Assembly (NCBI GenBank): GCA_018333785.1
Contig: JAGXSU010000089.1
Coordinates: forward strand, 1 to 64,000
Direction of reading: 5' to 3'
Length of the DNA: 64,000 nt
Source of the DNA: Methylomicrobium sp.
GTDB lineage: Bacteria > Pseudomonadota > Gammaproteobacteria > Methylococcales > Methylomonadaceae
The notes under the pieces were generated by a model. That model was not told the DNA's origin and ran no database searches. It saw only the letters and a list, made by a program, of their open reading frames with translations. Positions 30,130 to 32,146 of the stretch are shown here, piece after piece (positions within the stretch are counted from its first letter, which is position 1; every line of letters begins with the position of its first letter). Made by a program: the position numbers and the translations under genes.

Positions 30130-30217
30130 GGAGAGGTGGCCGAGCGGTCGAAGGCGCACGCCTGGAAAGTGTGTATACGGCAACGTATCAAGGGTTCGAA
30201 TCCCTTTCTCTCCGCCA
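30130..30217 (+). tRNA. tRNA-Ser (GGA)
   Basis: An 88-base class II tRNA with encoded CCA. The acceptor stem pairs GGAGAGG with TCTCTCC (one G-T pair), discriminator G. The anticodon loop reads CTGGAAA, giving anticodon GGA for UCC/UCU. A long variable arm (TGTGTATACGGCAACGTATCA) and the T arm AAGGG-TTCGAAT-CCCTT complete the serine-type fold. Confidence 0.95.
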
Positions 30218-30655: not shown

Positions 30656-31387
30656 ATGTCAGATAAAGATCGTGTTTTTCAAGAAGAACTTAAAGTAGCC
30701 ACTGACTTTAAATTCGGTTCTGCAGTGGCGAATGTTTTTGATGATATGGTTAATCGATCGGTGCCTTTCTACGGAGAAATACAGCGAATGATGGCCGAGT
30801 TAGCCGCAGATTATGCCAAGCCGGGCACAGATGTTTACGACTTAGGTTGCGCTACCGGCACCACCTTGATCGGAATGAATACCAGCGTATCTGAAGATAT
30901 ACGATTCATAGGTATTGATGACTCGACCGAAATGCTGGATAAATGTCGAATCAAACTTAATGAAGCTGGCTTTTCCCGGCCTTTTGATTTGCGTGTGGCT
31001 GATTTGAATCGTGATGTTGAGATTTCCAATGCCTCTGTCGTTGTTTTATGCCTGACACTGCAATTTGTTCGACCGATTTCGCGAGAAAAACTTTTGAAGA
31101 GGATATTCGATGGTTTGGAAAGCGGCGGCGCGTTAATTCTGGTTGAAAAAATACTGGCAGAAGACAGTGTATTCAATCGTGAATTTATTAAGCAATACTA
31201 TAACTACAAGCGCAGGAATAACTACAGCGAAATGGAAATTTCGCAAAAACGAGAAGCCCTGGAAAACATTCTTGTTCCTTACAAACTCAGCGAAAATATT
31301 AGCTTGCTGCAGGATATTGGCTTTGAGCATAGTGAAGTGTTTTTTAAGTGGTATAACTTTTCCGGACTTATCGCGAGAAAACAATGA
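30656..31387 (+). CDS. cmoA: Carboxy-S-adenosyl-L-methionine synthase CmoA
   Basis: CmoA converts SAM and prephenate to carboxy-SAM, the donor CmoB uses to finish uridine-5-oxyacetic acid at tRNA position 34. The 243-residue protein has the SAM fold with VYDLGCATGTT (about 60-70), FIGIDDSTEML, ASVVVLCLTLQFV and the family-specific C-terminal YSEMEISQKREALENIL with the arginine expected to bind the carboxylate, plus FEHSEVFFKWYNFSGLIARK. cmoB, often its neighbour, is absent here. The 3' end overlaps a membrane methyltransferase-like gene by four bases. Confidence 0.9.
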   Translation: MSDKDRVFQEELKVATDFKFGSAVANVFDDMVNRSVPFYGEIQRMMAELAADYAKPGTDVYDLGCATGTTLIGMNTSVSEDIRFIGIDDSTEMLDKCRIKLNEAGFSRPFDLRVADLNRDVEISNASVVVLCLTLQFVRPISREKLLKRIFDGLESGGALILVEKILAEDSVFNREFIKQYYNYKRRNNYSEMEISQKREALENILVPYKLSENISLLQDIGFEHSEVFFKWYNFSGLIARKQ

Positions 31388-32091
31388 TTCAAATCGGTAA
31401 TTTCTTTTTTAAATATCGTAACTGGGTATTTGTCCCGTTATACATGGCATTATTTTTTCCATCGCCTGTCATCTTGTCGGATGTGAATCATAACTGGCTT
31501 TTATTCTTTGGCTTATTCATCACCATCTTCGGTCAAATAATTCGAGGCGCCACTATCGGATTAGCTTACATCAAGCGGGGCGGTCTTAAGAAAAAAGTTC
31601 ATGCGGTTAATCTGGTGACCGAGGGTATTTTCAATCACTGCCGAAATCCGCTCTATGTTGGCAATATATTGATGTTGGTAGGTATTGGTATTTTATCCAA
31701 TTCTTTGATTTTCGTAGGCTTAGTTATCCCTCTATTTCTGTTTATTTTTCAATCCATAGTGATGGCGGAAGAGAATTTTTTGCAGGAAAAGTTTGGCGCT
31801 GAGTTTGATAGTTATTGCAATCGCGTGAATCGTTGGATTCCTGATTTTAACGGTTTAAAAAGTACGTTTAATAGCATGGAATTTAATTGGCGACGTTGGC
31901 TGTCCAAGGAAGTAAGTACTTTGCATGTCTGGCTGATGGGTATTACGTGTATAACCCTGTTGAAATATCCCGAATTATCTGCCTTTGATGATGGACGACG
32001 CAATGAGCTTTTGATAATTATAGGATTATTGCTGATAACCTCTTTTTCTGGTATTCGCTATCTTAAAAAGTCAGGAAGATTAAGGGGATAA
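31384..32091 (+). CDS. Isoprenylcysteine carboxyl methyltransferase-like membrane protein
   Basis: This 235-residue protein with about five to six hydrophobic segments carries the conserved ICMT/PEMT motif: GIFNHCRNPLYVGN (about 79-92), then the glutamate-bearing MAEENFLQEKFGAEFDSYCNRVNRWIP. These residues bind SAM in isoprenylcysteine and phospholipid methyltransferases. Bacterial members methylate diverse lipophilic acceptors; the substrate is not known here. It overlaps cmoA by four bases (ATGA), so the two are translationally coupled. Confidence 0.82.
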   Translation: MIQIGNFFFKYRNWVFVPLYMALFFPSPVILSDVNHNWLLFFGLFITIFGQIIRGATIGLAYIKRGGLKKKVHAVNLVTEGIFNHCRNPLYVGNILMLVGIGILSNSLIFVGLVIPLFLFIFQSIVMAEENFLQEKFGAEFDSYCNRVNRWIPDFNGLKSTFNSMEFNWRRWLSKEVSTLHVWLMGITCITLLKYPELSAFDDGRRNELLIIIGLLLITSFSGIRYLKKSGRLRG

Positions 32092-32121: not shown

Positions 32122-32146
32122 AAAAAGCGACAGTATTCGCTCTTTT
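32122..32146 (+). terminator. Probable terminator after the cmoA operon
   Basis: AAAAAGCGA faces TCGCTCTTTT across a 6-base loop, with a flanking T run, 30 bases after the methyltransferase stop. One base bulges in the stem. Confidence 0.5.

Follow-up and report, generated by a model that had tools for sequence, protein, structure and literature searches.

Within the window (the whole 64,000-nucleotide stretch of Methylomicrobium sp. DNA analysed here), a cmoA gene runs directly into the gene of an integral membrane protein:

30656–31387, plus strand: cmoA, membrane-partner type, encoding 243 aa and predicted to make carboxy-SAM (TIGR00740, 263.8 bits, cut-off 193.3)
31384–32091, plus strand: integral membrane transferase of the PEMT/ICMT type, 235 aa, predicted carboxy-SAM user (PF04191, 43.1 bits, cut-off 25)
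31384–31387, plus strand: ATGA, in which the cmoA stop overlaps the start of the membrane gene (read directly in the sequence)

That both genes are real and share four bases, as the original prediction had it, is confirmed by the sequence together with the profile scores, and the overlap suggests that they are translationally coupled. Among 111 linked cmoA/membrane-gene pairs, with ORF starts taken mechanically, the exact four-base overlap is found in 28 and a spacing of less than 60 bases in 98. A tRNA-Ser(GGA) gene (30130–30217) lies some 440 bases 5′ of cmoA. The terminator once claimed to follow the pair did not hold up: the nearest terminator-like site (32122–32145) points to the minus strand, and no plus-strand terminator was found after the membrane gene in the 3-kb region, where terminator-like sites number five against 2.7 (sd 1.8) in shuffles. 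The closest named relatives of the pair come from Methylobacter and other Methylococcaceae MAGs.

Two partner proteins and two clades of CmoA

Carboxy-SAM (Cx-SAM) is an unusual cofactor, best known from tRNA modification. The whole of the window CmoA aligns to its E. coli counterpart (chain 4gek_A, E 1.4e-54), and the protein falls below the stricter equivalog NF011995 (PRK15451; 197.7 bits, cut-off 285), a shortfall that would fit a separate CmoA clade. We compared residues across 179 CmoA-like ORFs; these amount to 154 distinct sequences, of which 111 are membrane-linked, 35 cmoB-linked and eight neither. K198, R199 – which we take to be the contact to the Cx-SAM carboxylate – E164, K165, Y190 and E194 are identical in 111/111 membrane-linked and 35/35 cmoB-linked proteins. 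T67, Y181, E200 and W232, the signature that the window CmoA carries alongside K198 and R199, occur in 111/111 of the membrane-linked sequences; the cmoB-linked proteins have L67 (35/35), H181 (32/35), Y232 (28/35) and mostly S, T or A at position 200.

A maximum-likelihood tree of CmoA comprised 101 rows, in which 22 Bacteroidota sequences are a random draw and near-identical relatives of the window were left out. A branch with support 100/100 and length 1.26 sets apart every cmoB-linked CmoA, whether gammaproteobacterial or from Bacteroidota, given that three rows (L011, L018 and L032) were relabelled from neither to cmoB-linked by contig position, L018 having only a cmoB fragment at a contig end. 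Partner requires one label change on this tree and phylum four, and a quick tree gives the same split between membrane-linked and cmoB-linked proteins: as judged from these sequences, the CmoA tree follows partner, not phylum. The clade that holds the window CmoA (29 rows, 100/99) also contains 22 Bacteroidota and six other Methylococcales sequences, a mixture that suggests transfer between the two phyla, in either direction. The trees of CmoA and the membrane protein are correlated (Mantel r 0.89), as expected for linked genes, which shows co-inheritance only.

The membrane protein comes just below the cut-off of one ICMT profile (PF04140, 22.9 bits, cut-off 24) and well below that of another (NF040696, 46.1 bits, cut-off 160). 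Its closest curated model is LmtA (TIGR04571), matched at 75.9 bits over residues 3–184, again short of the cut-off of 325. Sequence searches return 5vg9 (E 1.9e-7) and 4a2n (E 5.1e-5). For an AlphaFold2 model (pLDDT 87.1, pTM 0.82) the nearest solved folds in VIA-align are ICMTs – 5vg9 (Z 11.6), 4a2n (Z 10.7) and 5v7p (Z 10.1), over approximately residues 1–154 – beyond which residues ~166–229 form extra C-terminal helices. A sterol reductase, 4quv, follows close behind (Z 9.9), helical models often giving such Z scores, so fold likeness alone does not name the function. Foldseek gave no match to the model at E ≤ 0.001, the ICMT matches lying at E 0.02–0.35, and the assignment to the ICMTs is based on VIA-align and the sequence searches together.

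Besides its C-terminal helical part, the window protein differs from the ICMTs in having RNP in place of RHP and an invariant YIxRGG motif. The arginine of this motif, R65, is present in 99/99 members, a set that includes four proteins not encoded beside cmoA (L047, L050, L057 and L130) and one that is truncated (L054). Six relatives matching at ~100 bits have T at this position in five cases and a gap in one, and R recurs in 2/10 distant homologues; in the comparison of the subfamily with the same six relatives, H85 stands at 97% and N88 at 100%. The carboxymethyl group is described as being recognised by Lys91 in CmoB (PMC4482062) and by Arg350 in CmoX (PMC12783734). By analogy, R65 is a candidate for recognition of the donor carboxylate; it sits in a low-confidence loop (residues 64–75, pLDDT <50).

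Distribution of the pair

With an alignment of the membrane protein as query, the genomes of 84,980 species were scanned; at least 588 stretches matched, at least 540 of them relatives, and the best 80 were examined. A CmoA-like ORF adjoins the membrane gene in 79 of these best 80 homologues; it lies just upstream, is 57–84% identical to the window CmoA, and in L094 and L143 is about 0.5 kb away. The 80 comprise 74 Bacteroidota (Sphingobacteriaceae, Chitinophagaceae, Dyadobacter, Hymenobacteraceae, Chryseobacterium and others), five Methylococcales and one unassigned proteobacterial MAG. This last genome (G145, locus L130) is the one that departs from the pattern: no cmoA adjoins its membrane gene, and a cmoA–cmoB pair lies elsewhere in the genome.

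In an even draw of Gammaproteobacteria the membrane protein was found in 17 of 369 genomes (weakest E 4e-45). With the window genome excluded, CmoA lies beside the membrane gene in 16/16, cmoA coming first in 15 and the membrane gene in one; among all 111 linked CmoA the corresponding figures are 100 and 11. Every genome with the membrane protein that was searched for cmoA has one. The 247 genomes of a Bacteroidota phylum draw yielded a cmoA-like gene in 12, over the cut-off in eight, of which six lie beside cmoB and two beside the membrane gene. Membrane proteins above 300 bits likewise number two in that draw, both adjoining cmoA, and none was found in the six genomes with cmoA beside cmoB; the four low-scoring cmoA-like genes have neither cmoB nor a strong membrane match. 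The two pair-bearing genomes, which include the draw's centre, were already among the best 80 of the scan. With only two pairs in 247 genomes, the pair is rare across Bacteroidota as a whole.

These counts rule out a chance or strain-specific pairing, given adjacency in 79/80 best homologues, in 16/16 Gammaproteobacteria and, as set out below, in 18/20 Methylococcales. A larger conserved cluster is also ruled out: flanking genes differ, the next commonest neighbour family being present in 21/80 loci, and just two genes are common to the loci. In Dyadobacter the neighbourhood gives a weak hint of a lipid context. A PF04116 fatty-acid hydroxylase, found at 7/80 loci overall, lies directly upstream of the pair (for example in L093, L095 and L102), and an LPG-synthase-type membrane protein (family at 12/80 loci) and a CDP-alcohol phosphatidyltransferase (5/80) are encoded nearby.

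We tested for cmoB in 49 of the best-80 genomes (44 Bacteroidota and five proteobacteria). None of the 44 Bacteroidota with the pair had a cmoB over the cut-off, five giving ~66-bit matches to generic methyltransferases. Four of the five proteobacteria had one, the fifth (G147) being a MAG that may be incomplete. In the Gammaproteobacteria draw, cmoB exceeded the cut-off in three of the 16 other genomes with the pair. Because cmoB was not found, the pair would be the only evident use of Cx-SAM in most of the bacteria tested outside Methylococcales.

Several other CmoA-like genes deserve mention in their own right. In one genome of the Bacteroidota draw (G378, L181 63–2223) a divergent CmoA-like gene of 163 bits, in which S replaces R199, precedes two ORFs for membrane proteins, of which one matches the PEMT family (34.6 bits); the genome has no cmoB match, and the arrangement is possibly a second, independent pairing of CmoA with a membrane transferase. 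In another (G150, L183 1495–3443) a CmoA-like ORF adjoins an ORF resembling a DNA cytosine methyltransferase (named by eye) in a prophage-like setting reminiscent of phage CmoA–CmoX. Low-scoring CmoA-like genes also occur in G367, G092 and G309 (L179, L180 and L182), genomes without a cmoB match or a membrane partner; that of G367 keeps a KREALEN motif and comes after a HAD-like ORF (by eye).

Loss of the usual cmoA in methanotrophs

The original prediction took cmoB to be absent, which is true of the window only: the same genome has a full-length cmoB (G000:C107:78690–79631, 479 bits). A cmoB elsewhere, combined with a pairing confined to this strain, was to have counted against the proposal; the first was found, on contig C107, and the second was not, the pairing recurring at 79/80 loci. 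The pair itself lies on contig C89, so that cmoA and cmoB are not adjacent, and the window cmoA is the sole TIGR00740 match above the cut-off in its genome.

On C107 a 0.4-kb gap separates cmoB from the gene 5′ of it, which is presumably mlaC; an mlaC-like upstream gene is also present in the fetched stretch of 24/30 usual cmoA–cmoB loci of relatives (L009–L038). The gap (L001 2464–2880) holds a decayed remnant corresponding to the C-terminal ~88 residues encoded by the usual cmoA, interrupted by a stop and gaps and ending at the cmoB start. Its score is 49 bits; of 300 shuffles, 298 matched at all, and none of them exceeded 24 bits. The usual cmoA was thus formerly at the C107 locus and has since been lost. 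In a Methylobacter MAG (L157) 32 residues of the cmoA 5′ end are left in the equivalent gap (58 bits); no clear remnant was found in five other gaps examined (L158, L071, L075, L069 and L160).

In a survey of 101 genomes – that of the window and 100 relatives – cmoA was found in 88 (E ≤ 1e-20). The best cmoA exceeds 270 bits in 45 genomes, with cmoB within 2.5 kb in 43/45. In the remaining 43 cmoA scores lower, and cmoB lies within 2.5 kb in 1/43 and somewhere in the genome in 42/43. The two score classes occurred together in none of the 101 genomes. Fisher's p for the survey (3e-8) takes no account of shared ancestry and is not read here as a probability. The sequences were checked in 34 genomes of the lower class: 34/34 carry the membrane-partner CmoA signature, 34/34 have cmoB, 19/34 have a strong membrane-protein match, and none has a CmoA of the usual score class. 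Nine lower-class genomes fall outside these 34, among them G092, whose sequence was read and found to differ. Two cmoA copies occur in four genomes of the lower class (G005, G030, G032 and G053); both copies were sequence-checked in G030 only, and the second copies of the other three score at most 222 bits. Since the family residues are kept, and since this is the sole type of CmoA in 34 cmoB-bearing Methylococcales after loss of the usual cmoA, the CmoA of the pair is predicted, with a high degree of confidence, to make Cx-SAM.

The membrane protein (E < 1e-20) is present in 20 of the surveyed genomes, all of the lower cmoA class, and its gene lies less than 700 bases from cmoA in 18/20, being elsewhere in G023 and G048. 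The other 23 of the 43 lower-scoring genomes are without a strong match. The membrane gene is absent from a congener of the window organism (G002, L221) that has kept the CmoA of the pair, is reduced to a fragment beside cmoA in G044 (L223), and is split into two ORFs beside cmoA in G053 (L236). It has been lost repeatedly in Methylococcales, where it is dispensable, because the CmoA of the pair persists without it in many genomes.

Proposed function and its alternatives

The pairing and its distribution, the two clades of CmoA and the remnant of cmoA are plain from the genomes compared. As to the reaction, we propose that CmoA makes Cx-SAM out of SAM and prephenate, and that the co-translated ICMT/PEMT-fold membrane protein would pass the carboxymethyl group of Cx-SAM to an acceptor embedded in the membrane, such as a lipid head group or a lipid phosphate. 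In the methanotroph lineage of the window the pair would have arrived alongside an existing cmoAB locus, its CmoA nesting with those of Bacteroidota; the old cmoA would then have decayed, the new CmoA very probably supplying both the membrane enzyme and CmoB. As a whole, a Cx-SAM-dependent membrane carboxymethyltransferase fed by its paired CmoA is the explanation we favour, and we consider it rather likely.

Precedent comes from the known Cx-SAM transferases, each of which has a CmoA homologue of its own encoded next to it: CmoA/CmoB, TglE/TglF and MccS/MccB (PMC10491745), and likewise phage CmoA/CmoX, whose product is 5-carboxymethylcytosine (PMC12783734). As listed in these two papers, the known carboxy-SAM users are few, all soluble, and act on tRNA, peptide, nucleotide or DNA. 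With CmoA–CmoB of the tRNA cmo5U pathway the window pair has in common a CmoA homologue adjoining a predicted Cx-SAM transferase, together with conserved CmoA residues; yet CmoB is a Rossmann-fold tRNA enzyme, whereas the partner here is an integral membrane protein of the PEMT/ICMT fold, and the CmoA clades are separate. Phage CmoA–CmoX (PMC12783734) resembles it in a CmoA without CmoB, beside a transferase of an unrelated methyltransferase family, and in the same guilt-by-association argument, but CmoX is a DNA cytosine C5-MTase homologue in phage, and the window protein is membrane-embedded and chromosomal. TglE–TglF (3-thiaglutamate) and MccS–MccB (microcin C-like) similarly combine a dedicated Cx-SAM synthase with a dedicated carboxymethyltransferase (PMC10491745); these, however, are soluble, have peptide or nucleotide substrates and belong to natural-product clusters, whereas the window pair, with its membrane protein, forms a unit of two genes on its own.

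A CmoA that very probably makes Cx-SAM, the lack of cmoB in most tested pair genomes outside Methylococcales, the presence of cmoA in each membrane-protein genome searched for it and the precedent of the known neighbours together make the membrane protein a likely consumer of Cx-SAM; our prediction, drawn from comparative genomics, is that it probably is one. Were it so, the acceptor would quite probably be lipid-like, since the ICMT-type fold puts the reaction at the membrane. The original prediction that the carboxy-SAM of CmoA serves the membrane enzyme, yielding a lipophilic product, is thus partly upheld: it has strong indirect support because cmoB is missing from most tested pair genomes outside Methylococcales and cmoA is present in each membrane-protein genome searched. 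Against the use of Cx-SAM stand the two genomes (G023 and G048) in which the membrane gene is away from cmoA, and its loss in many Methylococcales.

In the most serious alternative, the membrane protein would be a methyltransferase of the usual SAM-dependent kind, resembling LmtA, PEMT or ICMT, and would not consume Cx-SAM, linkage stemming from, for example, co-regulation or SAM balance. The PEMT/ICMT-type enzymes known to us use SAM, and so does LmtA, the lipid A 1-phosphate methyltransferase that is the closest curated family by profile (TIGR04571), albeit far below its cut-off; we know of no CmoA partner for LmtA, and our literature search found no relevant LmtA paper. The PF04191 match and the ICMT fold point in the same direction, as do the ~100-bit relatives in Bacteroidota, which are mostly without cmoA and imply that the wider family works without Cx-SAM. 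Adjacency at 79/80 loci with unrelated flanks and mostly without cmoB is nonetheless hard to explain without a Cx-SAM consumer; both gene orders are found (100 against 11), and R65 sets the subfamily apart from the six ~100-bit relatives, if less cleanly from distant homologues (R in 2/10). We consider this alternative unlikely, although it is the one to be taken most seriously.

Decidedly less likely is that the membrane protein acts on a carboxyl made with Cx-SAM by a separate, unlinked transferase, for instance as a methyl-esterifying enzyme. ICMT, whose fold the membrane protein has, esterifies carboxylates, and CmoM is described as methylating a carboxymethyl product (cmo5U); but such a scheme needs an extra carboxymethyltransferase, and the neighbours of the pair include no constant third gene (next family 21/80). 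That the CmoA subfamily stopped making Cx-SAM and works with the membrane protein in a different complex, or towards a different product, as the clean differences at positions 67, 181, 200 and 232 and the missed NF011995 cut-off (197.7 of 285 bits) might suggest, is very improbable given that it is the sole CmoA type in 34/34 sequence-checked Methylococcales that keep cmoB, that the old cmoA has decayed in the window genome, and that the columns common to both groups, among them K198 and R199, are unchanged.

Returning to a carboxymethyltransferase fed by its own CmoA, the conserved pair points to an undescribed use of Cx-SAM, probably on a membrane molecule. A pairing of cmoA with a membrane partner was not found in the open-access literature, subscription papers and preprints lying outside the scope of the search. 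In the predicted combination of a Cx-SAM synthase with a dedicated transferase, the membrane protein would be a new kind of partner alongside CmoB, TglF, MccB and CmoX. More broadly, we lean towards the view that these proteins are a family of PEMT/ICMT-fold membrane carboxymethyltransferases with their own synthase, responsible for an unrecognised carboxymethylated lipid or membrane product across many Bacteroidota and in scattered Gammaproteobacteria, and partly dispersed by horizontal transfer, the CmoA having displaced that of the tRNA pathway in some methanotrophs; the lipid and the reach across many lineages are the parts of this view that we infer.

If true, a widespread, membrane-embedded user of Cx-SAM would connect the cell envelope with prephenate and SAM, and would predict a measurable +58 Da lipid in easily grown organisms. 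Annotation would require correction, a Bacteroidota 'cmoA' without cmoB not being equivalent to a capacity for tRNA cmo5U. The displaced cmoA of methanotrophs would amount to a natural complementation experiment.
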